A DNA stretch of 64,000 nucleotides from positions 2,170,001-2,234,000 of the forward strand of contig NZ_CP053748.1 in NCBI RefSeq assembly GCF_024400215.1, read 5' to 3'. The notes beneath the pieces were generated by a model that saw only the letters and a program-made list of their open reading frames with translations, was not told where the DNA came from and made no database searches. Position 1 is the first letter of the stretch. Each line of letters opens with the position of its first letter. The position numbers were made by a program, and so were the translations under genes. This document shows positions 18,521 to 38,551 of the stretch, in pieces. The stretch comes from Massilia sp. erpn (GTDB taxonomy: Bacteria > Pseudomonadota > Gammaproteobacteria > Burkholderiales > Burkholderiaceae_D).

Positions 18521-19705
18521 TCAAATCAGGGCTTGCTGGATTTGCTCCTCGCTGGCCAGGCCCATGGCCAGGGCGGCATGGACCTGGTACACGGACTGGC
18601 TGGTAAAGGTGGCGTGGGTCAGTCCGGCATTGGCGTCGCGCCAGAAGCGGTGCAGCGGCGAGCTGGTATGCAGGGCACTGCCGCCGCAACGGCAGAACAC
18701 CTCGTTCACCGCGCGTACCGCGCGTCCTGCGCCGCGCACCTGCTCGGCGCGGTTGGCGGCGCGCCGCGCCAGCGATACCTCGGCGCCCTCGGCCACCAGC
18801 GCGTAGGTGGCGGCTACATTGCTCAGCATCGCCGCCTGGGCTGCGTGCACTTCGCTGGCCGCTTCGCCCAGTACCGTCAGCATGAACGGTTCCGGCGCGG
18901 CCTTCGTCTGCAGGATGCGTTCGCGGACTTGCCGCCGTGCCGTTTCCAGCAAGCCCTGGCACATGCCTAGCACTGCCGCCGTGATCGCGTTCGGGAACAG
19001 CGATGACCATGGCATGTGATACAGCGTGCCGCTGCGCCGGCAAGCGGCGGCGGCTTCGCCCGACATCACGGCCGCTGTCAGAAGGCAGCGGTAGGCGGGG
19101 ATAAACGCACCACTCACCTTGACGTCCTTGCTGCCGGTGCCTTGCAGGCCCACCACATTCCACGTGTCCTCGATGATCTCGTAATCGGCGCGCGGCAGCA
19201 TCACGTGCATGCCCTGGCGCGGCTGCGCCGGTTTGCCATGTGCGTCGCCCAGTACAGCGCCCAGCACCAGCCACTGGCAATGGTCGGTGCCGGAGGAGAA
19301 GGTCCAGCGCCCGTTCAGCAGATAGCCGCCGGACACCGGCGTCGCCACGCCCATCGGCGAATACGGCGAGGCGATCCAGTTGTCGGGATGCTCACCCCAT
19401 ATCTCCCGCAGCAGCCGGTCGTCGTTCAGGCTCGCTTCCCAGTTATGCACGCCGACCACCCCGGCGATCCAGCCCGCGCTCGGATTGTGCGCCGCGATCG
19501 CCATCACCGCCTGCAGAAAATCGTTGGGATGCGCTTCCAGACCGCCGAAAGCGCGCGGCTGCAGCATGCGGATGACATTCGATTCCTTCAGCAGCGCCAC
19601 CGTGCTGGCCGGCAGCTTGCCCAATTGGTCCGCTTCCGCTGCTTGTTCTTGCAGCAGCGTCAGCATGTCTTCGTCCAGATTCAGCACGTGGGCCATCCTT
19701 GACAT
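18521..19705 (-). CDS. Acyl-CoA dehydrogenase-fold flavin monooxygenase/dehydrogenase
   Basis: The 394-residue protein has the acyl-CoA dehydrogenase fold: an N-terminal helical domain, a middle beta domain with WTFSSGTDHCQWLVLGAV and NVVGLQGTGSKDV, and a helical C-terminus. The pattern TFSSG...GLxGTGSKDV is typical of group D flavin hydroxylases (HsaA/HpaB-like) that use reduced flavin to hydroxylate aromatic substrates, rather than of true fatty acyl-CoA dehydrogenases. No partner flavin reductase is visible. It is the last gene of the nine-gene operon, 18 nt after the cytochrome b561 gene, so a tailoring hydroxylation is inferred. The substrate is unknown. Confidence 0.75.
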   Translation of the reverse strand: MSRMAHVLNLDEDMLTLLQEQAAEADQLGKLPASTVALLKESNVIRMLQPRAFGGLEAHPNDFLQAVMAIAAHNPSAGWIAGVVGVHNWEASLNDDRLLREIWGEHPDNWIASPYSPMGVATPVSGGYLLNGRWTFSSGTDHCQWLVLGAVLGDAHGKPAQPRQGMHVMLPRADYEIIEDTWNVVGLQGTGSKDVKVSGAFIPAYRCLLTAAVMSGEAAAACRRSGTLYHMPWSSLFPNAITAAVLGMCQGLLETARRQVRERILQTKAAPEPFMLTVLGEAASEVHAAQAAMLSNVAATYALVAEGAEVSLARRAANRAEQVRGAGRAVRAVNEVFCRCGGSALHTSSPLHRFWRDANAGLTHATFTSQSVYQVHAALAMGLASEEQIQQALI

Positions 19706-19723
19706 GGTTGCGGGAGAGGGCGC

Positions 19724-20281
19724 TTACTCGGCGCGGCGGCCCAGCATGCGCGACAGGGTATGGTCCTTGTCCAGGATATGGTGTTTGAGCGCGCCGGCGA
19801 CGTGCAGCGCGATCAGGGCCAGCAGCAGATAGCCCAGGTAGCCGTGCAGGGCTTGGCCCAGGTCGGACCAGGCGGCATTGAGAGGAATCGCCTGGCCGGG
19901 TTTATCCGGCGCGTAATTGGCGGGGAAGATTTCCCAGCCGAAGATGCCAAAGCCATGCCCGCTGGCGCCGGAGAACAGCATGCCGGTCAGCGGCATGGCC
20001 AGGGTTCCCAGCAACAGCAGCCAATGCACGGTTTTGGCGGCCAGGTGTTCGAAGCGGGAAAATTCGCGCACCGGCTTGGGCAGACCGTTGACGATGCGCC
20101 ATGCCACACGCGCGATGATTAGCGTGAAGATCAGCAGGCCGATCGATTTATGGATGTGGTACAGCGGCCAGGCTTCGGTCTGCACCATATAAATGCCCAC
20201 GCCACATAGGGTCAGGATGCTCAGGGCCACCAGCCAGTGCAGGGCGACGGTCAGGCCGCTGAGTTTTTTTTCGGTATCCAT
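19724..20281 (-). CDS. Cytochrome b561 family protein
   Basis: The 185-residue integral membrane protein has four predicted transmembrane helices. Histidines suited to bind b-type haem occur in ALHWL (about 15), YHIHKS (about 42-44), VHWLLLLG (about 86) and LIALHVAG near the end. Proteins of this CybB/YodB type transfer electrons between quinol and a partner, such as superoxide or a redox enzyme. Its place inside the biosynthetic operon, 33 nt from the PCP-C gene and 18 nt from the flavin enzyme, suggests it may supply or remove electrons for a tailoring step, but it could be an unrelated passenger. Confidence 0.85.
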   Translation of the reverse strand: MDTEKKLSGLTVALHWLVALSILTLCGVGIYMVQTEAWPLYHIHKSIGLLIFTLIIARVAWRIVNGLPKPVREFSRFEHLAAKTVHWLLLLGTLAMPLTGMLFSGASGHGFGIFGWEIFPANYAPDKPGQAIPLNAAWSDLGQALHGYLGYLLLALIALHVAGALKHHILDKDHTLSRMLGRRAE

Positions 20282-20314
20282 ACTTTTCTCCTTGTTATCG
20301 CAAAAACGCCGCCC

Positions 20315-21901
20315 TCAGGACAGCAAAATAGTTTCCAACTGCGAGACGACGCTATCGAGCAAGGCTTCGATGGTGCGCGGCGAGTACATGCAGGGGCTGA
20401 AGCCCATGGTCAGTTTTAGTTCCTGTCCCGCTAGCAGGACGTTCATGAACGGCTTGATCCCGGGGCTGAACCATTTTTCACCCTCGCCGCAAGGCTCGCT
20501 GGCGCGCTCGAAAATGAATTCTTCCGTGCTGGCGCCGGCAAAGGGGATGAAGTTGAAACCGAGATGGTATAGCGGCAGCCTGGCCATGGCTTCGCGCACG
20601 GCCGCATCCTGGTTCATGTATTTTAGGCAGGTCAGCGACAGCGCATCGTCCTGTACCGCCTTGGCCTGGCGCGCGATGGATTCCACCAGCGCGATGCCTT
20701 GCAACTGCTCGGGATTGCGCAGGTACAGGGTGGCGTAATTGATCATCCAGCCTACGGTCTGCAGGACATTGGCCTCGGGGATGCTCTGGTAAATGCGGCC
20801 GTTGTGCACCATTGCCAGCGCCAGGATCCCGCTGCCCGACCAGGTGTGGAAGGCCTGCTGCAGCGCCGCCATCACCACGTAGCTGGGATCGACTGCCTGC
20901 AGGCGCTGCAGCTCGAGCAGACGGACGGTGGCTGCGCTGCTCAGCGAGCGGGAAGCAAAGCCCAGCGCTGCCATGGCGCCGTCGGCCTTGGGCAGACTGG
21001 CTGGATCGGGATCGGCGGGCAGCAGACGGTAGCCGTCCCAGTCCTGCGACTGCCAGTACGCGTAATGCGCCAGCGCCGGCCCCTGGGCATAGTTGTGCAG
21101 CAGCCTGGCCCAGTCGCCCACGCGGCGGCCGGCGGCGCTCAGGCGCAGCGGCTGGCCGGCGCGCAGCGCGCGGTAGGCGGTGGCGAAATCGCTGAAGAGA
21201 ATTTTTTCCGAGATATTGTCGATCAGGATATGGTGCAGCAGCACGAACAGGCGCGCGCCGCGTTCGCCGCCGAGATCGAAGTAGACGGCGCTGAAGGTCC
21301 GCTCTTCGACGCGGATGCTGGCCTGGTAGCCGTTGCAGATGCGGTTGATTTCCGCCGCCAGCAGATGGTCCGGTGTCGCGCGCAAATCCTCCTCATGCCA
21401 CCAGGGCGCCATGCTGTCGGGCGCCTGCAGATGCTGTTGCCACTGGCCGGCGGCATCGCGGCGCAGCAGGATGCGCAGGCCATCGTGCTGGCGCAGCACG
21501 GCGTCGATGGCGGCGCGCACGTGTCGCGGCGGGTCTTGCGCCGTCAGCCGGTACAAGTGGCCGACGTTGTAGTGATTGACGTCGATACGCTCGAACAGCC
21601 AGTAATGCACCGGCAGCAGCGGGAAGGTGTCCGCCTCCGGTGCAGCGGTGATGGCGGCGGGCGCCTCGTCCTGGCCGGCAGCCTGCTGCTGGCGCACACA
21701 TTGCTCCAGCCGCGCCAGCGTGGGTTCGTCAATGAAGTCGTCGACGGCGATTTCGATCTGGTAGGCATTACCCACATGGAGCAGCATGGCGATCAGCTGG
21801 ATGGAGGAGCCGCCGATGTCGGTAAAGCTGGCGCCAGTGGGAATCTCGTCCAGATCCAGCACCTTGCGCCAGATGGCGCGTAAATTCTCTTGTAGGTCCA
21901 C
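20315..21901 (-). CDS. NRPS-like PCP-condensation didomain protein
   Basis: The 528-residue protein begins with a carrier domain (about 1-75) bearing the phosphopantetheine site IGGSSIQ with Ser33. It continues with a condensation domain (about 90-528) containing an intact HHxxxD motif, HHILID, at 223-228. There is no adenylation, thioesterase or other NRPS domain. Condensation domains join an acyl or aminoacyl group on one carrier to a nucleophile. Here it may transfer a chain from the separate ACP, or release it onto a free amine or alcohol. It lies between the MATE exporter (18 nt) and the cytochrome b561 gene (33 nt). The substrate and the loading enzyme for its carrier are not evident. 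Confidence 0.85.
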   Translation of the reverse strand: MDLQENLRAIWRKVLDLDEIPTGASFTDIGGSSIQLIAMLLHVGNAYQIEIAVDDFIDEPTLARLEQCVRQQQAAGQDEAPAAITAAPEADTFPLLPVHYWLFERIDVNHYNVGHLYRLTAQDPPRHVRAAIDAVLRQHDGLRILLRRDAAGQWQQHLQAPDSMAPWWHEEDLRATPDHLLAAEINRICNGYQASIRVEERTFSAVYFDLGGERGARLFVLLHHILIDNISEKILFSDFATAYRALRAGQPLRLSAAGRRVGDWARLLHNYAQGPALAHYAYWQSQDWDGYRLLPADPDPASLPKADGAMAALGFASRSLSSAATVRLLELQRLQAVDPSYVVMAALQQAFHTWSGSGILALAMVHNGRIYQSIPEANVLQTVGWMINYATLYLRNPEQLQGIALVESIARQAKAVQDDALSLTCLKYMNQDAAVREAMARLPLYHLGFNFIPFAGASTEEFIFERASEPCGEGEKWFSPGIKPFMNVLLAGQELKLTMGFSPCMYSPRTIEALLDSVVSQLETILLS

Positions 21902-21919
21902 GTGTTCTCCTGTTCAGAT

Positions 21920-23281
21920 TCAGGCAGGCGCGCCGGAGCTCAGGCTGTCAATCAGCTTGATGCGCCATGCGCCACGCATCCAGCGCCAGATGTTGTAGCC
22001 ACACTTCAGCGTCTCGTCCAGCACCAGCAGCCATAGCAGAGCGAAGAAGCCGGCCACCGGCCCGATGAAATACACCAGCGGCGCTGAGACGGCCCAGGTG
22101 ATCAGAATCCCCGCCACGGTTGGCCGCATGCCGTCGCCGGCCGTTTTCAGATTGGAGCCGATCACCATATTCACCGCCTTCACCGGTTCGGCCAGAGCCA
22201 GCGGCAGCAGGCTGGTGACGGCAATCGCCAGCACGGCCGCATCGGTGGTAAACAACGCCAGTAACTGCTGGCCGAACAGCACGATGGGCAAGATCATGAG
22301 CGCCACGATCAGGACGCTGTAGCGCAGCGCCTTATAGATCAGGGCTTCGACCGTTTGATAGCTGTTGGCGCCGATGTAATTGCCGGCGAGGATTTGCGCG
22401 GTCACGGTAAAAGCCAGGCTCGGCACAATGCACAGCAGCAGAATATTCCCGCCGAGGACGCGCATGGTCAGTTCCGCCGGCCCGATGGCAGACACCATGC
22501 TGAGCACAAACATCAGGAACAGTTGCACTGACAGCGGTTCCAGCAGCGAAGGCACGGCGACCACGGTGCTGAGGCGGGCGATCCTGCCGAAATCGGCGGA
22601 CGGCCAGCTCAGACGGATGGTGAAACCCAGCTTGATCTTCTGCACCGCCACCAGGAAAACCAGGGCCGAGAACACGGCCAGAATGCTGACGCAAGCCACG
22701 CCTGTGACGCCGAAGCGGCCCAGTCCCCACACGTTGTAGACCACGGCCGCATCGCCCACGATGTTCACCAGCAGGATGATGGCGGCGGCGCCGATATTGA
22801 ATTTGACGATGCCGTACAGTGCATTCATCACCTGGAACAGATAGCGCGCACCGAGGATGCCATAGCCGCAGCCCATCAGCAGCAGGAACTGTTTGGCGAT
22901 GGGCGCCACATTGTCCGGCAGGCCGATGAGGTCCACCATGTAGGCGCTGCCGAAATAGAACAGCAGAAATTGCAGCGCCGAGATTAACAACACCAGCAGC
23001 AGGGTGCTATTGAAAATGCGCTTCGCCAGCGCGGCGTCGCCACTGCCCAGCGCCTGGGCGGCCAGCGCCTTGGCGCTGGAATTCAGGCTGCCGTAAAAGA
23101 CGTCGCAGAACACCAGAATCGGCAGCACGGCGCCCACCGCCAGCGCCGCTTGCAGCGAGATCTTGGAGAGGAAGAAGGCATCCACGGCGGGAACCGAAAA
23201 CCCCACCAGAAACTCGATCATGATGGGAATCGACAAGCCCCAGAACTCCTTCGTCATTGTGGCGTCGGTTTTGGTATTCAT
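21920..23281 (-). CDS. MATE family efflux transporter
   Basis: The 453-residue protein starts at ATG 23281 (MNTKTDATMTKEFWGLSIP). The frame stays open upstream but there overlaps the FAD monooxygenase gene in another frame, so the longer version is rejected. About twelve hydrophobic segments, with internally related halves, fit the multidrug and toxic compound extrusion family, which exports small cationic or aromatic molecules using Na+ or H+ gradients. It sits inside the biosynthetic operon, 47 nt after the FAD monooxygenase gene and 18 nt before the PCP-C gene, and is the likely exporter or self-resistance factor for the product. Confidence 0.9.
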   Translation of the reverse strand: MNTKTDATMTKEFWGLSIPIMIEFLVGFSVPAVDAFFLSKISLQAALAVGAVLPILVFCDVFYGSLNSSAKALAAQALGSGDAALAKRIFNSTLLLVLLISALQFLLFYFGSAYMVDLIGLPDNVAPIAKQFLLLMGCGYGILGARYLFQVMNALYGIVKFNIGAAAIILLVNIVGDAAVVYNVWGLGRFGVTGVACVSILAVFSALVFLVAVQKIKLGFTIRLSWPSADFGRIARLSTVVAVPSLLEPLSVQLFLMFVLSMVSAIGPAELTMRVLGGNILLLCIVPSLAFTVTAQILAGNYIGANSYQTVEALIYKALRYSVLIVALMILPIVLFGQQLLALFTTDAAVLAIAVTSLLPLALAEPVKAVNMVIGSNLKTAGDGMRPTVAGILITWAVSAPLVYFIGPVAGFFALLWLLVLDETLKCGYNIWRWMRGAWRIKLIDSLSSGAPA

Positions 23282-23328
23282 GCTGTATCGGTCCCGTTTC
23301 GTGAAAGTGAAAATGGCGTGAGGCTGCG

Positions 23329-24408
23329 TCAGGCGGCCTGTCCCAGACTGCGGAACAGGAAGGCGCGGGAAAACGCGGCCAGCGGCAGCGAGTAGTGCTC
23401 GACGATGCGGTCGAACCACTGCATCGAATGCAGCGCCTGCTGCTGGATGCTGCTGACCGCTTCGCTGCGCTGCTGCTGGTAGTGCGCCAGCGCCTCGGGC
23501 AGCGCGCCGCCTTGATGCAGGCTGTCGGCCAGGGCGATGGCGTCCTCCACGGCCAGGCGGGTGCCGGAACCGATCGAGAAGTGCGCGGTGTGGGCGGCGT
23601 CGCCGATCAGCACCATCTGCTCGCGGTGCAGCGAGTTGCAGTGGATCTGCTCGAACTGGCGCCATTCGTGCGGCGCATCGGACAGGCTGGCCAGCGAGGC
23701 ATCGCCCAGCAGGCTGGCAAAGATGTCCTCCAGCCGCGCCAGATCGGAGGAGAGTGCGCGGCGGCCGAAGCCGAAGCCGTCGAAGGTTTGCTGCGCGCAT
23801 TCGACCACGAAGGTGGACTGGTCTGCGCTGAAGGGATAGGCGTGCACCCACACTGGCCCATGCGTGGTTTGCTGGAAGTCGAACACCATGCGGTCGAAAG
23901 CCTTGTCGCAACCGAGCCAGATAAAGCGGTTGGCCGACTGCACCCGCGCGATGGGCGCATCGGCGCCGATCTGCTCGCGGCAGCCGCTCTTGATGCCGTC
24001 CGAGCCGACCAGCAGCTGATAGCTGCCGGCCAGATCGGCGGCGCTGGCCGGTGATGCGTAGTGGATGCGGCAGCCCAGCTCCACGGCGCGCGCGCGCAGC
24101 ACCTCCACCAGTGCATGGCGCCCGGTGCTGCGGCCGAATTGATTGGACAGCAGTTTGATTCCGCCTTTGTGGCGGATTTCGATCTGATCCCAGCTCACGG
24201 CGCGCGCCAGGATGGCGCCATGGCTGGCCTCATCCATCCGCTGCATGGCGGCCAGCATCGGCTCGCGCAGGATGATGCCCCAGCCGGAGTTGCGCTCCGC
24301 GCTGTCGCGCTCGAAGATATCGATCGCGGCAGCGGGCTGGCACCGCTGCATGGCGATGGCGAAGTAGAGGGCCGCCACGCCGCCGCCGATGCAGGCGATC
24401 TTCATCAC
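23329..24408 (-). CDS. FAD-dependent aromatic monooxygenase (VioD-like)
   Basis: The 359-residue flavoprotein has an N-terminal Rossmann motif IGGGVAALY (8-16) and the second FAD motif LIGDAAHTAHFSIGSGTRLA around 265-285. Its overall layout, from FERDSAERNSGWGIIL to the C-terminal MQWFDRIVEHY, resembles VioD of violacein synthesis and the N-terminal half of salicylyl-CoA 5-hydroxylase. These enzymes hydroxylate indole or aryl-CoA-type substrates. The gene overlaps the aryl-CoA ligase gene by 4 bp (ATGA), so hydroxylation of an activated aromatic acid is a reasonable inference. The substrate is unproven. Confidence 0.83.
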   Translation of the reverse strand: MMKIACIGGGVAALYFAIAMQRCQPAAAIDIFERDSAERNSGWGIILREPMLAAMQRMDEASHGAILARAVSWDQIEIRHKGGIKLLSNQFGRSTGRHALVEVLRARAVELGCRIHYASPASAADLAGSYQLLVGSDGIKSGCREQIGADAPIARVQSANRFIWLGCDKAFDRMVFDFQQTTHGPVWVHAYPFSADQSTFVVECAQQTFDGFGFGRRALSSDLARLEDIFASLLGDASLASLSDAPHEWRQFEQIHCNSLHREQMVLIGDAAHTAHFSIGSGTRLAVEDAIALADSLHQGGALPEALAHYQQQRSEAVSSIQQQALHSMQWFDRIVEHYSLPLAAFSRAFLFRSLGQAA

Positions 24409-25979
24409 GCCGCCACCGCTGGCGGAAGATCGAACTTGCCCAGCGCTGCGCGCGAGACCTTGCCGTTGTCGTTGCGCGGCAGGGTGTCGAGCGCGACCAG
24501 CTGTTTCGGCAGGCTGTGTTTTTCGCAGACCACGCCGAGAATGGCCTGCACGGCGGCGATGCCTTCATACCGCTCGCATTGCTTGGCGTCGAACACGCAG
24601 AACAGCACCGGCTCGGCCAGTTCGTTCTCGCCTTGATGCGGCACCAGCGCGCACTCCAGCACCTGGGGCAAGCGGCGCTGGATTTCGCTTTCGATCGCCA
24701 GCGGCGCCACCCAGATGCCGTTCGACTTGAACAGGTCGTCGCTGCGGCCGCGGTAGGTATAGAAGCCCTCGGCATCGCGGGTGAACAGATCGCCGGTGCA
24801 GCACCAGCCATCGACGAATTTCTCGCTGCTCGCTTCCGGTTTGTTCCAGTAGCCCAGATTCGGATGACGGCCTTTGACCCACAGGATGCCGTCGCCGTCC
24901 TGGCCCTGCGCGCCGGCCTCCAGCCTGACCTGATAGCCGACCACCGGGCGGCCGGTGGCGCCGGCCTTGAGTGTGCTGCGCGAATTGGAGAGGAAGATAT
25001 GGCCCATCTCGGTACTGCCGATGCCGTCATAGATGGGCAGGCCGAAAGCTGCCTGCCAGCGTTCGAAAATCGATTGCGGCAGGCCGGAACCGGCGGAGAT
25101 GAAGACGGTATCCTCGCTGAGATAAGGCTTCAGGCGCGCGGCATGCGGCAGCAGGGCGGCGTACAGGGCCGGCGCGCAGAAGATCGCGCTGGGGCGGTAG
25201 GCCGCGATATTGCGCATGACCGCGTAGTCGTTGCTGGGCATGGCGGAGTCCAGCACCGCCGTTGCACCCAGCAGCAGGGGAAAGAAGAAACTGGCGCCGA
25301 AGCCGTAGCCGAAGAACATCTTGGCTGCCGAATAAAACACATCGTCGGACGTGAAGCCATGCGTGCAGACTGCGAAGGCCTGGGTGTTTTCCAGCATGGT
25401 GGCGCTGCAATGTTGCACGGCCTTGGGGTGGCCGGTGGTGCCGGAAGTGTATTGCCAGAAGGCGGCTTCGTTTTCGCCGATGTCGGTGAACTCGAAAACG
25501 CATTGCTGCCGCGTCAGCGCGCTCAGATGCAGCAGGCCGGCAACCTCCTCGGAGCCGGCGTTGGCCGGGGCGACGGTGGCATAGCTGTCCTGCAGCAGCA
25601 GGCGAGGCGGGGTGGCGGCGTCCGCGCACACGGCACGGACGATGTCCAGGTTGTCGCTTTCGCAGGCCAGCAGGCTGGCGCCGCTGTCGACGACGATATG
25701 GCTCAGCGAATCGCGCGACAGCTTGGGGTTGATGACCACCGGGATGGCGCCGATCGCCAGCGCCGCCAGGAAGATTTCGCTGACGGCGGGCGAATCGTAC
25801 AAGCTGATCACGATGCGCTGGCGCGAAACCAGTCCCAGGCCGTACAGAGCCTGGGCCAGGCTGGCGGCGCGCTGGAACAGGCTGGCGTAGCTCAGTCCGG
25901 TATTCTGGTAAAGATAAGCATTTTTATTGAAATCCCTTTGACGGGAAACGATTTCCCGGGCCAGATTGATTCGCACCAT
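24405..25979 (-). CDS. Benzoate-CoA ligase-like acyl-activating enzyme
   Basis: The 524-residue member of the ANL superfamily has motifs A3 YTSGTTGHPKAVQH, A5 YDGIGSTEMGHIFLSN, A7 TGDLFTRD and A10 PRNDNGKVSR with the catalytic lysine. The A5 region GIGSTEMGH is typical of benzoate- and anthranilate-CoA ligases, including the PqsA type. The start is set at ATG 25979 (MVRINLAREI), with AGGAG upstream; an ATG at 26000 would overlap the ACP stop. It lies 20 nt after the ACP gene and overlaps the FAD monooxygenase gene by 4 bp. It probably activates an aromatic acid for transfer to CoA or the ACP. Confidence 0.87.
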   Translation of the reverse strand: MVRINLAREIVSRQRDFNKNAYLYQNTGLSYASLFQRAASLAQALYGLGLVSRQRIVISLYDSPAVSEIFLAALAIGAIPVVINPKLSRDSLSHIVVDSGASLLACESDNLDIVRAVCADAATPPRLLLQDSYATVAPANAGSEEVAGLLHLSALTRQQCVFEFTDIGENEAAFWQYTSGTTGHPKAVQHCSATMLENTQAFAVCTHGFTSDDVFYSAAKMFFGYGFGASFFFPLLLGATAVLDSAMPSNDYAVMRNIAAYRPSAIFCAPALYAALLPHAARLKPYLSEDTVFISAGSGLPQSIFERWQAAFGLPIYDGIGSTEMGHIFLSNSRSTLKAGATGRPVVGYQVRLEAGAQGQDGDGILWVKGRHPNLGYWNKPEASSEKFVDGWCCTGDLFTRDAEGFYTYRGRSDDLFKSNGIWVAPLAIESEIQRRLPQVLECALVPHQGENELAEPVLFCVFDAKQCERYEGIAAVQAILGVVCEKHSLPKQLVALDTLPRNDNGKVSRAALGKFDLPPAVAA

Positions 25980-25999
25980 GGTTTTTCTCCTGATGCTCA

Positions 26000-26245
26000 T
26001 TAAACGGCGGCGAAGAAATTCTTGCGAATCAAATTCACGGTTCGCAAATTATCCATGGAAAGCTCTTCCAGTTCGATGGCCTGATTGCGGATTTTTTCGA
26101 TTACAATCACCAGCGCCATGATTTTCAGCGAATCGAGTACACCCGACTCAATCAGATCCAGATCGTCTTCAATGGCGATGTGCGACAGTTTGTTTTGCTG
26201 GCGAAGATAATCGCGTACTTGCGCAATGGAATTTTCAATAGTCAT
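26000..26245 (-). CDS. Stand-alone acyl carrier protein
   Basis: The 81-residue acidic protein has the carrier site ESGVLDSLKIM, with the serine for 4'-phosphopantetheine. This small single-domain ACP is distinct from the housekeeping AcpP, which normally carries DSLD and sits with fab genes. It lies between the KAS III-like gene (21 nt) and the aryl-CoA ligase gene (20 nt), so it is probably the dedicated carrier for the starter or chain. Its base composition is more AT-rich than the flanking genes, which hints at horizontal transfer of the operon. No phosphopantetheinyl transferase gene is in the window. Confidence 0.88.
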   Translation of the reverse strand: MTIENSIAQVRDYLRQQNKLSHIAIEDDLDLIESGVLDSLKIMALVIVIEKIRNQAIELEELSMDNLRTVNLIRKNFFAAV

Positions 26246-26266
26246 AATGTCAACCGAAAAACACGC

Positions 26267-27184
26267 TTAAAGGGAGGCCAGCAGCAGGCAGGAGCAATGA
26301 CCGTTGCCGTCGGATTGAAGCAGCAGCAGTTCTGGATCGGCAGTCCTGGACTGGCTTGAATAATCGACCAGATTAATCATGCTGTCGCAGACATGGCAAT
26401 GGGCGATGCGGGCCACATTGCCGGGATAGAGCTGCGAAGCTTTAAATCCGCTACGCGCATCCCGCATCTTTTTTATGGGAAGGAAAATATTGTTGTTAAA
26501 TACGCGATTGATATCGCTTCTGCCGAGCTGATTTCTCCCCAGCAGAATATCCAGCGTCTGCGTTTGCAGCTGGCTCTTGTCGTTCAGCAGCACGCCGCTG
26601 GCGAACTCCTCCAGGTCGAGGCGCTGTATTGCATCGATCACCCGATACCGTGCATTGGCACCATCGGCGCGCAGGACGACAGCGCAGGCGGCGTCGCTGA
26701 ACAGGGCAAAGGCAGAGAAGCGCGTCATACCGGGTGTCATGCTGCCCAGACCCACCACGAGGACATTGTCCAGTTCGCCTGAAGCGACGCGCACCGTCGC
26801 CAGCCGCAGAGCCGATAGATAGGAAGCGCAACCGTTCAAGGTGGCGCTCTCCAGCAAGGCATTGGCGCAACCCAGGGTTTTCAGGACCTGGCCCAGCCTG
26901 GGTGCCAGCTCGTTGGGGTTTTCCGGAAAGGACGCAGCAGCAAACACCACCAGCTGAATTGCGTTGGCCGGGACCGCGCTGACCGCCAGGGCTTTTTGCG
27001 CGGCGTGCAGACCAAGTTGATAAATATCGGCGGTTTCATAATAGCTGCCCCAACCCCATAATTCGGGAAAATTCGCGCCGCCCAGGGCGCTCAGGGCCTG
27101 TTCGAAACCATCGGCCTGCTTGAATGTTTTTTCAGCCTCACCCAGCACGTAGGAGGCGCCCGAAAGATACGCGTCTCTTTTCAT
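26267..27184 (-). CDS. KAS III (FabH)-like ketosynthase with altered active site
   Basis: The 305-residue thiolase-fold protein has the nucleophile Cys119 in ATLNGCASYLSALRLA and a FabH-like segment LFSDAACAVVL. In FabH the triad is Cys-His-Asn. Here the HQAN loop is replaced by VFNNNIFLP (228-236), so the catalytic His is apparently Asn, while the GN of the third motif is kept (PGN, 254-256), followed by unusual histidines in RIAHCHVCDS. Such changes are seen in KAS III relatives that act as acyltransferases or accept non-standard starters. It lies 31 nt after the Dabb gene and 21 nt before the ACP gene. The reaction cannot be fixed from sequence. Confidence 0.8.
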   Translation of the reverse strand: MKRDAYLSGASYVLGEAEKTFKQADGFEQALSALGGANFPELWGWGSYYETADIYQLGLHAAQKALAVSAVPANAIQLVVFAAASFPENPNELAPRLGQVLKTLGCANALLESATLNGCASYLSALRLATVRVASGELDNVLVVGLGSMTPGMTRFSAFALFSDAACAVVLRADGANARYRVIDAIQRLDLEEFASGVLLNDKSQLQTQTLDILLGRNQLGRSDINRVFNNNIFLPIKKMRDARSGFKASQLYPGNVARIAHCHVCDSMINLVDYSSQSRTADPELLLLQSDGNGHCSCLLLASL

Positions 27185-27215
27185 GTTTAATTTTCCCTGA
27201 TGGCATGATGGAGTA

Positions 27216-27509
27216 TCAGGCGAGCGGCGTGTAATCTATTTCGAGGAATGCACTGACTTCGGGAATCCAGCGTTCCTTGACCAAGGTTTGATGCACCGGG
27301 TGATGGGTATAGCGATCGTAATCTTCTTGCGAGGCGAATTCCATTAAAATGCCGAAATCGTAATTAACTTGCTTGCTGGTCTGGCGCAGGCATTTAAAAT
27401 TCTGCACGCCGGGAATGTCGGAAAATTTGAATGTGTCGGCTAGAAAATCTTTTTCCTGCGCGGACCCTGGTGGATGCTTGAGCTTGAATACAATGGTGTG
27501 CTGAATCAT
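27216..27509 (-). CDS. Dabb-domain (stress-responsive alpha/beta barrel) protein
   Basis: The 97-residue protein starts MIQHTIVFKLK and contains the Dabb pattern with VNYDFGILMEFASQEDY and YTHHPVHQTLV. Dabb proteins are small dimeric alpha/beta barrels. Some, such as plant olivetolic acid cyclase, cyclise polyketides; others have unknown roles. It is the first gene of the nine-gene operon and has an AGGGGG ribosome site 5 nt before the ATG. A cyclase or chaperone role in the pathway is possible but only inferred. Confidence 0.85.
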   Translation of the reverse strand: MIQHTIVFKLKHPPGSAQEKDFLADTFKFSDIPGVQNFKCLRQTSKQVNYDFGILMEFASQEDYDRYTHHPVHQTLVKERWIPEVSAFLEIDYTPLA

Positions 27510-27839
27510 TTTATCCCCCTAAGAAATTCTGATTTCTGCTTATGTAACCAAGTATTTCAAATTTGCTAACGAGGGTAAGTGGCAAAATATTAGACGTCAA
27601 CTGGTTTTCCAATTCCCATTTTTGCAACAGTACCAATAAAGCATGCCGGTTTGACTTGCATGAAAGTGCTTATTTTTGTGGCAGGCAAGGTGGGATGGCG
27701 AGGCGCCTTGCTGGGATGGCTGGCGTAGATACCACTTCCATGCTGATGGGAAAGTGGTATCAGACCTCCCTGCCATGCGGTGATTTCATATCGACGCTAG
27801 AATCCGCTGTACCGTTATCCATTACGCAGGGTTGTTTTG
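27510..27839. other. AT-rich divergent intergenic region upstream of the biosynthetic operon
   Basis: The 330-bp gap between the Dabb gene (minus) and the GNAT gene (plus) is AT-rich, especially at 27510-27640. It must contain the operon promoter and the GNAT promoter. I see weak -35-like hexamers on the minus strand (TTGACG near 27600 and TTGAAA near 27560) but no convincing paired element and no regulator gene. A plus-strand open frame at 27563-27847 has no recognisable features. Confidence 0.5.
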
Positions 27840-28745
27840 ATGTTTGAGATTCGCAAATCGCAGCCGGGCGATGCGCCCGCGCTGGCCGAGGTCTGGCGCC
27901 GTTCCGTCAAGGCCACCCATCACTTCCTGTCGGATGAGGATTTTCGCCAGATCGACCTTCTCGTCAGCCAGCGGTATCTGCCGCAAGCGGATTTGTGGGT
28001 GGTGGTTGATGGCAATGGCGCGCCGGTGGCCTTTCTTGGCTTGAGCGGCACCCATGTGGACAGCCTGTTTGTCGATCCCGCCGTGCGTGGACAGGGCATC
28101 GGCAAGCTGCTCCTGGCCCACGTCGGCCAGATGCCGGAAGCGCTGACGGTCGACGTCAACGAGCAGAACGCGCAGGCCGTCGCCTTCTATCGCAAGCAGG
28201 GTTTTGTGCAGACGGGCCGTTCGGCCACGGATGGCGATGGCCGCCCTTATCCGCTGCTGCATCTGCGCCGTGCGGCGCCGCCCGCGCTGCCGCAAGTGCA
28301 GGAAATCCGCGTGCGCCTGGCCACGCCAGCCGACATTCCCGTCCTTTTCGAGGTCCGCACCAGCGTGCTGCAAAATCATCTGTCGCGCAGCCAGATGGTG
28401 GAATGGGGCGTCACCCCTGAGACGACCCGGCAACTGATGGAGCAGTCTCCCTGTATCTGGGTCGGTGAAGTGAATGGTGAGGTGGTGGCCTTCGCCACGG
28501 CCGATGTCGAAGGCGGCTCGGTGTTTGCCATGTTTATCCGCCCCGGCTTTGAAGGGCTGGGCCTGGGGCGGCGGCTGATGGCGGAGGTGGAGGCCCTGCT
28601 GTTCCGCCATCATGAGGCGATCTGGCTTGAAACCGATGGCCGCGATCCGGTGCGCGCCAACGGTTTCTACCTCAAGCTGGGCTGGACCCTGGCGGCCCGG
28701 CTGGAAGAGGGCGATGTGCGCTACGAGAAGCGCCGCCCCGCTTAA
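27840..28745 (+). CDS. Tandem GNAT-domain acetyltransferase
   Basis: The 301-residue protein has two GNAT domains. The first (about 1-145) has the acetyl-CoA loop VRGQGIGKLLL and the second (about 155-300) has FEGLGLGRRLM. GNAT enzymes transfer acetyl from acetyl-CoA to amines. The first domain resembles the YjaB-type, the second the small-molecule type. The start is ATG at 27840. The stop overlaps the stop of the convergent TonB receptor gene by a few bases, leaving no room for a terminator. Substrates are unknown. Confidence 0.88.
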   Translation: MFEIRKSQPGDAPALAEVWRRSVKATHHFLSDEDFRQIDLLVSQRYLPQADLWVVVDGNGAPVAFLGLSGTHVDSLFVDPAVRGQGIGKLLLAHVGQMPEALTVDVNEQNAQAVAFYRKQGFVQTGRSATDGDGRPYPLLHLRRAAPPALPQVQEIRVRLATPADIPVLFEVRTSVLQNHLSRSQMVEWGVTPETTRQLMEQSPCIWVGEVNGEVVAFATADVEGGSVFAMFIRPGFEGLGLGRRLMAEVEALLFRHHEAIWLETDGRDPVRANGFYLKLGWTLAARLEEGDVRYEKRRPA

Positions 28746-31228
28746 AAGTCCGTCGTCACCGAGAGGTTGACGGTGCGCGGTGCGCCCAGCGCTGCCATGC
28801 CGGAGAAATAGGCGCTGCCCCAGTAGTTCTTGTTGAACACGTTCTGCACGCCGGCGCGCACCACGGTGCGCTTGCCGCCGACGCGGCTCTCGTAGCGCGC
28901 GCCGATGTCCCAGCGCTGCCATGCCGGCAGGGTCAGACGGTTTTCCTCGCTCAGGAACAGGCGGCCGGTGCGCTCCATGCGCGCATTCAGCGTCAGGCCG
29001 GGCAGCCAGTGGCTGTCCCATTCGCCGCCGAGAACAAAGCGCCAGCGCGGCACGCCGAAAGCCGTGTGGCCGTCGTACAAGCCGTCTTCCGTTTTCAGCA
29101 GCTTGGCCTGGGTGTAAGCCAGGCCGCCCAGCAAGCGCAGGCCGGGCCGCATCTGTCCAAAGGTATTCCATTCGACGCCGCGGTTGCGCTGGCGGCCATC
29201 GTCGCCATAGATCGCAGTGGCGGGATTGCGCAGCAAGGTCGGCTGGGTGATCTGGTAGAAGCTCAGGGTTTGCATGATCTGGCCCAGATCCCATTTGCCG
29301 CCGACCTCGTACTGGCGGGTTCTATAGGGCGCGAACACGGCGCGGTAGTTGGCCGCCGTTTCATCCGTCACGGTGTCGCCCTTGCTCAAGCCTTCGATAT
29401 AGTTGGCGTACAGGGCCAATTGCGGCAGCGGCTTGAACACCAGGCCGGCCATCGGCGTCACGGCCTTCTCGTCGTAGCGGTCCTGGGTGCTGCGCTGGCC
29501 CGCATCGTCGTAGCTGTAGTTATCGGTCTGCACGCGCTGGCTGCGGGCGCCGATGGTCAGGCGCAGGCGTTCGTCCAGCACGGACAGGGTATCGGCCAGC
29601 ACCACGCTCGATAAGGTGGATGAGGTATCGCGTGGCGGCCTGGCCGGCGCAGCGGGAATCAGGGCCGGACCGGGCGCATAGATATTCGAGCTGAACTCCT
29701 CGCCAAAGCCGACGGCGGTGCCGCCTTCGCTATACAGGCGTGCCACGCCGAAGGTCCATTGATGCTTGACCGTGCCGGTGGCGAACTTGCCGCGCAGGCC
29801 GGCGTCGGCCGACACGGTGTTTTCGTAGCCGCTGACCGAACGCGCCGCATCGGTGAAATTGCCGCCGGCATCGGCCACCGGGCCAAAGCCCAGATGGCCG
29901 GAACGGCGGTTCTGGCGCCGTCCCACGCTGGCGTAAGCGGCCGCGCTGTCACTGATTTCGTATTCGCCGCGCAGCACCAGGCCATTGTCGCGGAAGCGCG
30001 AGTAAGCGCCGGGCAGCAGATTGGTTTTGGCGTCGGGCGCTTTCAGCACGTCGCCGGCAAAGCGGGCGAACAGGCCGGAGCCGCCGCGCATATCCTGGCC
30101 GGTATGAAAGGCGTCGAGCGAGAGCGACAGTTTTTCGCCCCGGTAATCGAGCGCGATGGAAGCCATTTGCTCGCGCTGCCTGCGGCCATCCAGGCTAGAG
30201 TCGCCGTTGGAGTGCAGGCCGTTGACGCGCACGCCCCAGGCATTGTTCGCGCCGAAGCGGCGGCCGATATCGGCACGCAGGCCGACTTGCGCATCCGATT
30301 CGTAGCTCAGGCCAAGGCGTGTCAGCGGCGCATCGGCCGCGCGCTTGGGCACCACATTGATGCCGCCGCCCACGCTGCCGGTGGGCGACATGCCATTCAC
30401 CAGCGCATTCGGCCCTTTCAGCACTTCGATGCGTTCATACATCTCCACCGGAATCTGCTGCGGCGGCAGCACGCCATACAGACCGTTCAGCGAGACGTCG
30501 CCGCTATCGATGGCGAAGCCCCGTATCATCATATTCTCGTAGGGGAAACCGGGCGGCACGATGACGCGCACCGAGGGATCGTTGGACACCACATCGCCGA
30601 TGGTGCGCGCCTGCTGGTCTTCCGCCAACTGGGCCGTGTAGCTGATCTGGCTGAAGGGCGCATCGAGCACGCTGGCATTTCCCAGCACGCCCAGACGGCC
30701 GCCGCGCGCCACCTGGCCGCCGGCATACGCCCCCGCCAGTTCTTCCAGCAGGCCGCCTTCGGCCGTTACCGTCACGGCGGGCAGCACCGCTTCGGGCGCG
30801 GCCGCCGCGCTGGCGCTGGAAGCGGCTGCGGCGGGCAGGCGCTGAATCAGATAGCCGCCGTTATCCTGCCGCAGCGCTTGCAGGCCGGTGCCGGCCAGCA
30901 GGACATGCAGCGCGCCCGCCACCGCATAACTGCCGTTCAAGCCCTGGCTTTGCACGCCCGCCGTCAGCTCGGTGGAGAAGGCGAGGATGATGCCGGCCTC
31001 GCGGCCCAGGCGCTGCAAGGCCACCGTCAAGGAGCCGGCCGGAATGCTGTAGCTGCGCGTTGCCTCGGCCTGCTGCTGCGTGCCGGCGACGGAGTGCGCC
31101 ATGGCGCCGCCGGGCAAGGCGCCCATGCCAAGCAGGGCGAGGGCTACGGCGCGGGCAATCAGGGCATGGCGGGGACGCGCGCTTGCCGCGCCAGGGTGAA
31201 GGCGGTGCTGGTGGCCGGACTGGCTCAT
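28742..31228 (-). CDS. TonB-dependent siderophore receptor/transducer with STN domain
   Basis: The 828-residue outer-membrane receptor has a signal region (about 25-45), then an STN (secretin/TonB short N-terminal) signalling domain at about 53-125 (SYSIPAGSLTVALQRLGREA), a plug (about 190-300) and a beta-barrel ending in a terminal Phe (VTTDF). The STN domain marks it as an FpvA/FecA-type transducer that signals ligand binding to FecR. It lies 87 bp downstream of fecR with an AAAGGA ribosome site. The ligand is probably a ferric siderophore, but it cannot be named. Confidence 0.93.
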   Translation of the reverse strand: MSQSGHQHRLHPGAASARPRHALIARAVALALLGMGALPGGAMAHSVAGTQQQAEATRSYSIPAGSLTVALQRLGREAGIILAFSTELTAGVQSQGLNGSYAVAGALHVLLAGTGLQALRQDNGGYLIQRLPAAAASSASAAAAPEAVLPAVTVTAEGGLLEELAGAYAGGQVARGGRLGVLGNASVLDAPFSQISYTAQLAEDQQARTIGDVVSNDPSVRVIVPPGFPYENMMIRGFAIDSGDVSLNGLYGVLPPQQIPVEMYERIEVLKGPNALVNGMSPTGSVGGGINVVPKRAADAPLTRLGLSYESDAQVGLRADIGRRFGANNAWGVRVNGLHSNGDSSLDGRRQREQMASIALDYRGEKLSLSLDAFHTGQDMRGGSGLFARFAGDVLKAPDAKTNLLPGAYSRFRDNGLVLRGEYEISDSAAAYASVGRRQNRRSGHLGFGPVADAGGNFTDAARSVSGYENTVSADAGLRGKFATGTVKHQWTFGVARLYSEGGTAVGFGEEFSSNIYAPGPALIPAAPARPPRDTSSTLSSVVLADTLSVLDERLRLTIGARSQRVQTDNYSYDDAGQRSTQDRYDEKAVTPMAGLVFKPLPQLALYANYIEGLSKGDTVTDETAANYRAVFAPYRTRQYEVGGKWDLGQIMQTLSFYQITQPTLLRNPATAIYGDDGRQRNRGVEWNTFGQMRPGLRLLGGLAYTQAKLLKTEDGLYDGHTAFGVPRWRFVLGGEWDSHWLPGLTLNARMERTGRLFLSEENRLTLPAWQRWDIGARYESRVGGKRTVVRAGVQNVFNKNYWGSAYFSGMAALGAPRTVNLSVTTDF

Positions 31229-31315
31229 TCGGGATTCCTTTCTATGCGGGTGGATGGCTTCTATCCTGTATGCCCCGCGAGATTGGAAAAGGGATCAGTG
31301 CGGACGAATTATTTT

Positions 31316-32287
31316 TCAGCCGCGCGCGGAGCGCGGCGTCAGCGTGACCCAGTAACGCGTCATGTAGTTGACTTGCAGCGGCAGCGCCTTGCCCAGCATA
31401 TCGAGCACCTTGCCGGTATCGGCCAGTGGATAGGTGCCCGTGACCTTGAGCGTGGCGACGGCCGGATCGACCGCCAGCCGGCCATGGCGATAGCGCGCCA
31501 GCGCCGCCACAAAGCGCTCCAGCGGCATATCCGTCGCCACCAGCATGCCTTGCAGCCAGGCTGTCGCATTCTCGTCGGCCGCATCCAGCAGGCTGACGGC
31601 GGCATCGCTGAATTGCAGCTTCTGGCCGGCCTGCAAGCGCTGCGGCGGCGCGTCCAGCGGCCGCACTTCCACCGCGCCTTCATAGACGGCGACTTCGGTC
31701 TGCCGGCAGTCCACCCGGCTTACGCTGAAGCGCGTGCCCAGCGCCTGCAGGCGGCCATGGCCGGTATACACGTAGAAGGGGCGCTCGGCCACGTCCTTGG
31801 CCGTCGTCACCAGGATCTCGCCATCGATCAGGCGTAGCACGCGCTCGCTGCCGCTGTAATCGATATCGATGGCCGAACTGGCGTTCATCTCCACGATGGT
31901 GCCGTCGGCCAAGGCCAGGCTGGTGCGCTGGCCGGTGCCGGTGCGCCGATCCGCGCTCCATTGCCGCCACGCGGCCTGCTCTTCCAGCATCCACGCCGCG
32001 CCGCCGGCAAACAGCGCCACTGCCAGCGCCTGCACCGCGCGCCGCCGCGCGGCCGAACGCGGAGCAGCCAGCGTCGCCTGCGCCAGGGCGGGCGGCAGCT
32101 GCTCCAGGCGGGAGCTGAATGCCGCTACTCTTTGCCAGGCCCGCTCATGGTCCTGGTGCGCCGCGCGCCAGGCCTGCCAGGCGCTGCGCGTGGCGTCGCT
32201 GGCCTGCTCCGACTGCAGCTCCACCAGCCAGCTGGCCGCCTGCAGGCGTACTTCCGCAGGGATGGTCGAAGAAAGCATGGTGTCCAT
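31316..32287 (-). CDS. fecR: FecR family anti-sigma/sigma regulator
   Basis: FecR proteins receive the signal from an STN-type receptor in the periplasm and activate the cognate ECF sigma factor. The 323-residue form starts at ATG 32287 (MDTMLSSTIPAEVRLQ), 11 nt after the sigma gene stop. A DUF4880-type cytoplasmic N-terminus (WLVELQSEQASDATRSAWQAW), one transmembrane segment around 75-90, a FecR domain (TSLALADGTIVEMNASSAI) and a C-terminal STN-interacting region are visible. It is the middle gene of a sigma-FecR-receptor unit. Confidence 0.9.
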   Translation of the reverse strand: MDTMLSSTIPAEVRLQAASWLVELQSEQASDATRSAWQAWRAAHQDHERAWQRVAAFSSRLEQLPPALAQATLAAPRSAARRRAVQALAVALFAGGAAWMLEEQAAWRQWSADRRTGTGQRTSLALADGTIVEMNASSAIDIDYSGSERVLRLIDGEILVTTAKDVAERPFYVYTGHGRLQALGTRFSVSRVDCRQTEVAVYEGAVEVRPLDAPPQRLQAGQKLQFSDAAVSLLDAADENATAWLQGMLVATDMPLERFVAALARYRHGRLAVDPAVATLKVTGTYPLADTGKVLDMLGKALPLQVNYMTRYWVTLTPRSARG

Positions 32288-32298
32288 GGCTGCGCGGC

Positions 32299-32802
32299 TC
32301 AATCGGCGAAGCAGCACTGTGCCAGCGCCTGCGCGATATAGCGTTTCACGGTCGGCAGCGAAACGTCGAGCCGGGCGGCGATTTCACCCTGGCGCATGCC
32401 ATCGAGCTGGGACAGCAGGAACGCTTCACGCACCTTGCCCGGAAGGCCGTCCAGCAGGCGGTCGATTTCGAGCAGCGTCTCCAGCACGATGGCGCGGCAT
32501 TCGGGCGAAGGGGCCAGCGGTTCGGGCAGGGCGGCCAAAGCCTGCAGATACGCCTGTTCCAGCTGGCGGCGGCGCTGCAGGTTGGCGACCATGCCCTGGG
32601 CGATGGTCGTCAGCAGGGCGCGCGGCTCCTGGATCGCCGGCGGCGCATCCTTGCTCAGCAGGCGGATGAAGGTGTCCTGGGCCAGGTCGGCGGCATCGAC
32701 GGAATCGCGCAGGCGCCGGCGCAGCCAGCCGAGCAGCCAGCCATGGTGGTCGGCATACAGCGCGGCGATGCCGGCGCCGGATGCGCAGCTGAGTGGTGAC
32801 AC
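32299..32802 (-). CDS. fecI: FecI-like ECF RNA polymerase sigma factor
   Basis: The 167-residue ECF sigma factor has region 2 (LRRRLRDSVDAADLAQDTFIRLL) split here only by notation, and region 4 (GMRQGEIAARLDVSLPTVK) with a helix-turn-helix. The start is taken as GTG 32802, 8 nt after an AAAGG ribosome site; a GTG at 32808 is an alternative. It probably directs transcription of the downstream receptor gene when the ligand is bound. A Fur-box-like sequence lies about 40-60 bp upstream. Confidence 0.9.
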   Translation of the reverse strand: MSPLSCASGAGIAALYADHHGWLLGWLRRRLRDSVDAADLAQDTFIRLLSKDAPPAIQEPRALLTTIAQGMVANLQRRRQLEQAYLQALAALPEPLAPSPECRAIVLETLLEIDRLLDGLPGKVREAFLLSQLDGMRQGEIAARLDVSLPTVKRYIAQALAQCCFAD

Positions 32803-32840
32803 GAACACATCCTTTCCCGGCCAAGCCGTTTTAAATTATG

Positions 32841-37969: not shown

Positions 37970-38551
37970 TTACAGCAGCGGCAGCAGTGTCGCCAGCGCC
38001 AGTTCGAAATCGAATTCGTGCGCCGCTTCCGCGATGTCCTGATAAGTGGCGATGCCCAGCGCGGCGATCAGCGACGGCGCCGACTGTTCCAGCAAATCGA
38101 TGGCCGCGCCATTGCCCTCGTCCAGCAGCAAGGCCAGCCGATCGAGCAGGGCGCGCTGCGCCGCCGGGTCGGCCGCGGCAGGCGCGGGCAGGGGCGGATC
38201 GCTGGCCGGCGGCGGCAAGACGCCATCCAGCTTATGCAGCAGGCGCCGCATGGCATCCTCCAGGCGATGCAAGGCCGGCGTGTCGAGCTGCTGCTCGATC
38301 TGCCGCGCCAGGTCATGCACCTCATGCGCGCCCACCATGCCGGCCGCCCCCTTTAAGGTATGCACCTTGCGCCGTGCATCCTCGGCCGCGCCGGCCGCCA
38401 GCAGGGCGCCGGCCTCCTGCGCGGCATCGCGGTAGTCGTGGCGGAAGCGCTGCAGCAGGCGCTGCAGCAAGGGATGATCCCCCATCAGACGCTGCAGGCC
38501 ATCATCCAGGTCGAGAGCGGAGCGCGGCGTCGCGGGAGCGGAATCGTTCAT
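37970..38551 (-). CDS. HPt-domain phosphotransfer protein
   Basis: The 193-residue protein contains an HPt four-helix domain with phosphorylatable His64 in HTLKGAAGMVGA. HPt domains relay phosphate between hybrid histidine kinases and response regulators. A Pro/Ala linker (about 112-130) leads to a C-terminal helical region of about 60 residues resembling the tail often found after HPt domains of Oxalobacteraceae kinases. No kinase or receiver gene is next to it, so it may be an orphan serving a kinase elsewhere. It lies 5 nt after the CAP lipoprotein gene's stop in the same direction. Confidence 0.88.
   Translation of the reverse strand: MNDSAPATPRSALDLDDGLQRLMGDHPLLQRLLQRFRHDYRDAAQEAGALLAAGAAEDARRKVHTLKGAAGMVGAHEVHDLARQIEQQLDTPALHRLEDAMRRLLHKLDGVLPPPASDPPLPAPAAADPAAQRALLDRLALLLDEGNGAAIDLLEQSAPSLIAALGIATYQDIAEAAHEFDFELALATLLPLL

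Follow-up and report, generated by a model that had tools for sequence, protein, structure and literature searches.

A 64,000-nucleotide stretch of the Massilia sp. erpn chromosome (contig NZ_CP053748.1, positions 2,170,001 to 2,234,000; hereafter the window), taken from a single-contig genome of 6.15 Mb, contains a nine-gene minus-strand operon that, on balance, probably serves to make a small hydroxylated aryl conjugate and export it. In the pathway that we favour, a PqsA-like ligase would adenylate an ortho-substituted benzoate, most likely anthranilate, and load it onto a stand-alone acyl carrier protein (ACP), and a flavin adenine dinucleotide (FAD) enzyme would hydroxylate the carrier-bound ring, probably at C5. 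A protein with the fold of 3-oxoacyl-ACP synthase III (KAS III) would take the acyl group onto Cys119, with His262 and Asp267 as activating residues, and would then hand it on, the suggested acceptor being the peptidyl carrier protein (PCP) domain of a didomain protein whose second domain resembles the epimerization (E) domains of nonribosomal peptide synthetases (NRPS). The E-like domain would couple the aryl group to a nucleophile, either soluble or bound to a carrier, and release the conjugate, an HsaA-like enzyme would add a further hydroxyl, and export would fall to a multidrug and toxic compound extrusion (MATE) transporter, with a resistance-nodulation-division (RND) pump in addition in two of four species. 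The substrate, the order of the steps, the direction of transfer and the product are those that the observed gene set, gene order, conservation and residues suggest; the Dabb (dimeric alpha/beta barrel) protein, the cytochrome b561 and the nucleophile are not explained by the proposed mechanism.

What makes this compact nine-gene system of interest is that an NRPS epimerase-like domain has seemingly been turned into something else, and that its substrate may come from a KAS III-fold transferase instead of an adenylation domain, the two key enzymes being rare, altered forms of familiar ones. If this is true, the labels '3-oxoacyl-ACP synthase III' and 'condensation domain-containing protein' mask distinct coupling chemistry. 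A bolder proposal, which we consider doubtful, is that the carrier-to-carrier relay of ligase, ACP, KAS III-fold acyltransferase and stand-alone PCP, ending in an epimerization-type domain with a condensation-like site in place of its own, would give release by a new catalyst and, as products, hydroxyanthraniloyl conjugates of a new class.

Organization and conservation of the operon

The nine open reading frames (ORFs), between positions 18521 and 27509, follow one another in the order Dabb, KAS III-like protein, ACP, ligase, FAD enzyme, MATE transporter, PCP didomain, cytochrome b561 and HsaA-like hydroxylase, and the gaps between them range from -4 nucleotides (ligase/FAD enzyme) to 47 nucleotides (FAD enzyme/MATE). 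The same genes in the same order are found in Pseudoduganella violacea (locus L024), Massilia sp. BJB1822 (L025) and genome G048 (L026), with protein identities of 86.6-98.8% and dN/dS values of 0.016-0.228 in all 27 gene-by-genome comparisons (nine genes in three genomes). Conserved order and dN/dS together show that the operon is more than chance. It is real, conserved and rare. A sequence-only reading of the window had described this tightly packed operon as a coherent biosynthetic set, able to activate an aromatic acid, load it on a carrier, hydroxylate and export it; the ORFs, the Pfam assignments and the order kept in three other genomes bear out the first statement, and the gene content bears out the second. 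Also as described there, the operon has no phosphopantetheinyl transferase, though three PF01648 matches above cut-off lie elsewhere in the genome.

The ligase ORF opens at 26000, and its likeliest start is 25979, after an AGGAGA motif, giving 524 amino acids where homologues have 523. The stand-alone ACP scores 24.9 bits against the DltC model, for which the cut-off is 68, and the Dabb protein scores 102 bits to structure 3bde and matches olivetolic acid cyclase weakly, at 16.5-18 bits. A sigma-70 scan returned 3 promoter-like sites against 2.6 expected and is uninformative, and the only PHROGs match is a weak one, to a family whose function is unknown.

The KAS III-fold protein

Cys119, His262 and Asp267 are invariant in all 20 aligned KAS III-like sequences and in 13/13 of a smaller alignment, the window's own included each time; in the 20, Gly15, Leu142, Arg155, Asp164 and Asn232 are invariant as well. 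Aligned with Aquifex FabH (2ebd), the protein has Asn231 at the FabH His position and His262 at the FabH Asn position, and in each of the 20 sequences the FabH Asn column holds His, the residue in the His column being Asn, Ser or Gly; in P0013 a His occupies the column just ahead of 231. Of the FabH-type Cys-His-Asn triad, Cys alone is kept. What is found instead is a Cys-His-Asp triad of the ChlB3/CerJ type, with the His-Asp spacing of five that ChlB3 has, ChlB3 being compared by its published residue numbers (Cys113, His296 and Asp301, with CerJ of the same type; PMC9573744). The same source reports that the CerJ mutants C116A, C116S and H295N are inactive and that ChlB3 shifts an aryl group between carriers, and AfcL, a Burkholderia KAS III-like enzyme that also has Cys/His/Asp, is reported to accept a beta-alanyl chain and hand it over to lysyl-CoA (PMC12186527). 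The KAS III-fold protein is accordingly named here a predicted aryl acyltransferase, not a chain-extending ketosynthase, and the acyl extension that had been entertained for it appears unlikely in view of the acyltransferase-type triad in 20/20 sequences.

Six more distant KAS III-like relatives (L027, L043, L044, L046, L047 and L048) have the same Cys-His-Asp residues in otherwise different clusters; AMP ligases share the locus in all six and carrier proteins in five, none being seen in L027. Some of these loci carry a ligase, an ACP and an amidohydrolase, which suggested benzoxazole sets; the two amidohydrolases checked (L043 and L046) are PF04909, likeness to NatAM was not shown, and this reading was dropped.

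The PCP-epimerase-like didomain

The closest solved structures to the didomain protein are PvdL and TycA constructs, in which a PCP and a domain with an EGHGRE motif align with it end to end at 106-117 bits; the next condensation-type domain in the same PvdL chain reaches only 22-23 bits. From the EGHGRE-type motif that they carry, the matched PvdL and TycA regions appear to be epimerization domains. An epimerase site is formed by Glu and His (PMC7551626), and for condensation activity the second His, the Gly and the Asn are given as important residues (PMC1894796, Asn in its Table 1). In the 13 aligned homologues, the EGHGRE Glu is replaced by Val (12/13) or Ile (1/13), and His222, His223 and Asp227 of the HHxxxD motif, including the second His and the Asp of condensation domains, are invariant. 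Equally invariant is Asn387, the equivalent of VibH Asn335, located through the VGx motif of the PvdL alignment. In our reading the didomain is a scaffold of the epimerization type that bears a condensation-like site and, unlike the PvdL and TycA didomains, stands alone. The sequence-only reading had called it a PCP-C didomain; a PCP and a condensation-superfamily domain are indeed present, but the best alignment is with PCP-epimerization didomains, whose catalytic Glu it has lost.

There is no adenylation domain for the PCP in the operon, and 20 other condensation-type domains above cut-off lie at other loci of the genome, so that loading of the PCP in trans by another locus is possible. A search of the longest open frame at each of these 20 loci gave no EGHGRE motif, and hence no epimerase of the same genome for reference. 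The predicted fold of the didomain has a mean predicted local distance difference test (pLDDT) value of 45.

The ligase and its substrate

By comparison with structures 2v7b, 4eat and 5oe3, the ligase falls between benzoate-CoA ligases and PqsA, and its score does not reach the cut-off of TIGR02262, the model of the benzoate family (Table 1). At the positions of both Ala227 and Leu332 of BadA (4eat) it has Gly, as does PqsA (5oe3), and the description of the enzyme as PqsA-like holds on this shared pocket. The BadA variant A227G is reported to have higher activity on ortho-substituted substrates (PMC10803450). Among the best 120 of 1626 ligase homologues, the pocket pair is Gly/Gly in 48, Ala/Leu in 30 and other, or unread by the pattern, in 42; the sole row named as an anthranilate-CoA ligase is Gly/Gly, the three named for 4-hydroxybenzoate are all Ala/Leu, and Ala/Leu is found in seven of the nine benzoate-named rows checked, of 10 (P0116 left out). 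The two pocket Gly residues would define a PqsA/AuaEII type of anthranilate ligase, the pair having been set against PqsA and not AuaEII. Three PF00425 (chorismate-enzyme) proteins in the genome match TrpE and PabB models, and none matches salicylate or isochorismate synthase models at E up to 1e-60. Because the pocket has the PqsA-like Gly pair and the chorismate enzymes are of the TrpE/PabB type, anthranilate is the likeliest substrate, as far as can be inferred from these sequences.

The two hydroxylases

The FAD enzyme matches the model of the bifunctional salicylyl-CoA 5-hydroxylase (PRK08255) at 305 bits, over profile positions 1-361 of 768 only, below the 1078 bits of the two-domain equivalog, and it scores 177 bits against the VioD equivalog, for which the value is 620. 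The salicylyl-CoA 5-hydroxylase family acts on thioesters of ortho-substituted benzoates. Within its own genome the FAD enzyme is 36% identical (204 bits) to an 822-amino-acid frame and 31% identical (147 bits) to a 391-amino-acid frame, the latter probably VioD. At E up to 1e-40 it has matches in 72 of 74 genus genomes; apart from its counterparts, at 93-100% identity in four of the 74, these are long frames at 34-39% and, in ten genomes, the 391-amino-acid frame at 31-34%. By its sequence the FAD enzyme is judged to be nearer to salicylyl-CoA 5-hydroxylase than to VioD. The earlier name of VioD-like monooxygenase survives in the ranking of solved structures, which VioD tops, and fails on model scores. 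The 10/74 genomes with the 391-amino-acid VioD-like frame (at G000:C1:1849174 in one of them) include all four operon carriers, which may mean nothing, the carriers being close kin.

The HsaA-like enzyme scores 359 bits against the HsaA equivalog, below the value of 450, and two flavin reductase proteins are found elsewhere in the genome.

Comparison with known systems

The ligase-ACP-transferase trio is already known logic, by analogy with aurachin and caboxamycin and, for the transferase, chlorothricin, and our verdict on the full set is that it is a variant of known aryl-carrier logic. Chlorothricin ChlB1-ChlB3-ChlB2 and CerJ/AfcL share with the operon the KAS III fold and Cys-His-Asp triad, ChlB3 with equal His-Asp spacing, and differ in a structure-alignment identity of 16-20% (CerJ, ChlB3, DpsC) and in the E-like didomain, which does not appear in the available portions of the sources on those systems. 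The adjacent KAS III, aryl-AMP ligase and ACP genes of caboxamycin (cbxB-cbxC-cbxD) and nataxazole (natS-natL1-natAC1) offer a second parallel (PMC5481532), but an amidohydrolase and precursor genes are peculiar to those clusters, and the FAD hydroxylase, PCP-E-like, HsaA-like and Dabb proteins to this operon. Aurachin AuaEII-AuaE-AuaB similarly combines an anthranilate-CoA ligase, an acyltransferase and an ACP (PMC10295502), but its type II polyketide synthase extension and prenylation have no counterpart in the operon. With the alkylquinolone pqs genes the likeness is the PqsA-like ligase only: this operon lacks a ketosynthase-type (condensing) KAS III and any thioesterase, PqsE-type included, among its nine genes, and has two carrier domains. 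Aimed searches of the open-access literature, most subscription journals lying outside it, found no description of the whole nine-gene set, and within that literature the earlier statement that no described cluster has this exact set stands.

Weighing the alternatives

Several points weigh against the proposed pathway. The predicted model of the KAS III-fold protein (pLDDT 91) matches NatS, ChlB3, DpsC, FabH and CerJ at nearly equal Z, 34.1 to 31.7, a comparison without power to separate an acyltransferase from FabH, and so the residues alone argue for the former; by sequence, its closest relatives with structures are FabH proteins. The Gly of the HHxxxDG motif of condensation domains is Asn228 in all 13 didomain homologues, and the E-like domain is therefore not classed as a condensation domain, the claim being that it may act like one. 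Gly also occupies the first pocket position in two of the nine benzoate-named ligases checked, the names of the ligase rows are automatic annotation, and the FAD enzyme's best match among solved structures is VioD, at 132 bits.

The KAS III-fold protein might instead condense an anthraniloyl thioester with malonyl-ACP, the Dabb protein cyclising and the monooxygenases decorating a quinolone, in the manner of alkylquinolones or aurachin. The PqsA-like ligase fits such a route, PqsC and PqsD are among the sequence matches of the KAS III-fold protein, the Dabb family includes olivetolic acid cyclase (a weak match), and aurachin biosynthesis handles anthranilate by ligase, acyltransferase and ACP (PMC10295502). 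We nevertheless think it unlikely, since the His and Asn columns of FabH are altered in 20/20 sequences, the nine genes include neither a KS-alpha/KS-beta pair nor a PqsE-like gene, and the PCP-E-like didomain is left without a role; the alkylquinolone similarity seen in the sequence-only reading extends to the ligase only. A siderophore or metallophore, in which the two hydroxylases would give a catechol-type aryl unit, followed by E-like coupling, MATE export and uptake through the neighbouring TonB receptor with its FecI/FecR, is suggested by that adjoining receptor and by a 95% receptor orthologue found only in the four carriers among 74 genomes (up to 13 candidates scored per genome). In P. 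violacea, however, the receptor gene is in pieces and the operon intact, and an opposite-strand acetyltransferase gene lies between operon and receptor, and this explanation too seems improbable. Quite improbable is an aryl ester or benzoxazole-type product, for which the KAS III-fold protein would join two aryl units directly, as may occur in caboxamycin and nataxazole, the PCP-E-like protein only carrying or positioning intermediates. The cbxB, cbxC and cbxD genes encode the same trio of KAS III, ligase and ACP (PMC5481532), and NatS is the top, though tied, fold match; but no amidohydrolase, the condensing enzyme of benzoxazole clusters, is among the nine genes, the nataxazole ester is reported to be formed by the ligase NatL2 (PMC7204872), and purifying selection acts on the PCP-E-like gene, whose HHxxxD is kept.

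Distribution

The named carriers of the operon are P. violacea CECT 8897 and Massilia sp. BJB1822, to which the host of the window is thus closely related, and a scan of named genomes with the KAS III protein reduced 108 pattern matches to two loci. Among 148 relatives, the window's genome counted, the KAS III protein has a match at E < 1e-170 in four, and 65 other genomes have matches at E 4e-12 to 9e-4. Among 392 family genomes its profile exceeds 500 bits in four, with G293 and G332 at 275-286 bits and 334 genomes having any match; among the matches listed, those below 62 bits were taken for ordinary FabH. The PCP-E-like protein is likewise found in four of the 392, and homologues at 88% identity occur in two more Massilia strains, YIM B04103 and MB5. 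A search of 5.8 billion proteins, with the best 7,994 candidates scored, returned 14 KAS III matches, which include the window's own and a remote plant protein, and 13 PCP-E-like matches, of which one is remote; both families look very small. For homologues of the KAS III protein, ligase and PCP-E-like protein at 62-71% identity, the longest contigs, themselves unread, are equal in size at 12,894 or 147,364 bases, an indirect sign of linkage. Viral contigs scanned for the KAS III protein gave 13 pattern matches and no relatives.

In six non-carriers chosen from 70, the 13.6-14.7 kb beside mnmE contain no match at E up to 1e-15 to eight operon proteins (ACP excluded); five of these stretches, all but that of L101, extend as far as pssA, a gene on the far side of the operon in the window. 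In one genome, G071, mnmE is adjoined by a 36% relative of window gene 37970-38551, Hpt-like by eye.

Downstream and upstream regions

In L026, the final base of the HsaA-like gene is also the first of an RND adaptor gene, after which comes a gene for a 1054-amino-acid RND pump, both on the operon strand; L024 together with L090 has the same pair after the last operon gene, and in the window and L025 mnmE stands in its place. Since the pair lies 3' of the operon in L024 and L026, the operon is longer in two of four species, and the unit is not always one of nine genes. The adaptor's nearest relative in the window's genome, at 2.82 Mb, is 48% identical. In P. violacea (L090, 5219-13128) a phage-type integrase and a restriction-like protein, the latter by eye, lie between mnmE and the RND pump.

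Table 1. Operon genes and flanking features of the window; all Pfam matches exceed the curated cut-offs.
Feature	Position	Strand	Pfam	Further evidence
Dabb protein, 97 amino acids; possible cyclase or release enzyme	27216..27509	-	Dabb	PF07876 57 bits
KAS III-fold protein, predicted aryl acyltransferase	26267..27184	-	ACP_syn_III	Cys119-His262-Asp267
Stand-alone acyl/aryl carrier protein, DltC-like	26000..26245	-	PP-binding	DSL serine present; PF00550 23.3 bits, cut-off 20.8
Benzoate-CoA-ligase-family adenylating enzyme	24405..25979	-	AMP-binding	PqsA-like pocket residues; TIGR02262 339.8 bits, cut-off 375
FAD monooxygenase, related to N-terminal part of salicylyl-CoA 5-hydroxylase	23329..24408	-	FAD_binding_3	PRK08255 305 bits
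MATE efflux transporter	21920..23281	-	MatE	PF01554 99 bits; TIGR00797 113.6 bits, cut-off 147.4
PCP + epimerization-like domain, condensation superfamily	20315..21901	-	PP-binding + Condensation	HHILIDN; without EGHGRE Glu; condensation-type Asn387
Cytochrome b561	19724..20281	-	Ni_hydr_CYTB	PF01292 107 bits
HsaA/HpaB-like two-component flavin hydroxylase, oxygenase component	18521..19705	-	Acyl-CoA_dh_2	HsaA model 359 bits; 2or0 390 bits
Inverted repeat GATACCACTT-14-AAGTGGTATC, possible operator, in divergent upstream region	27728..27761	.		Largely conserved in four genomes
Tandem Gcn5-related N-acetyltransferase (GNAT)	27837-28745	+		Matched at E up to 1e-50 in 4/74 genomes, all of them operon carriers
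TonB-dependent siderophore receptor with STN domain, FecR, extracytoplasmic function (ECF) sigma factor	28742-32808			TIGR01783 334 bits (receptor)

The right arm of the inverted repeat upstream of the operon is altered in P. violacea. Also upstream, the sequence GGTACTGTTGCAAA occurs at window position 27634 (minus strand), at 9500 in L024 and at 11372 in L026, and with one further mismatch in L025. It is one base off what we take to be the end sequence of IS6-type insertion elements, and is possibly a chance occurrence or a remnant.

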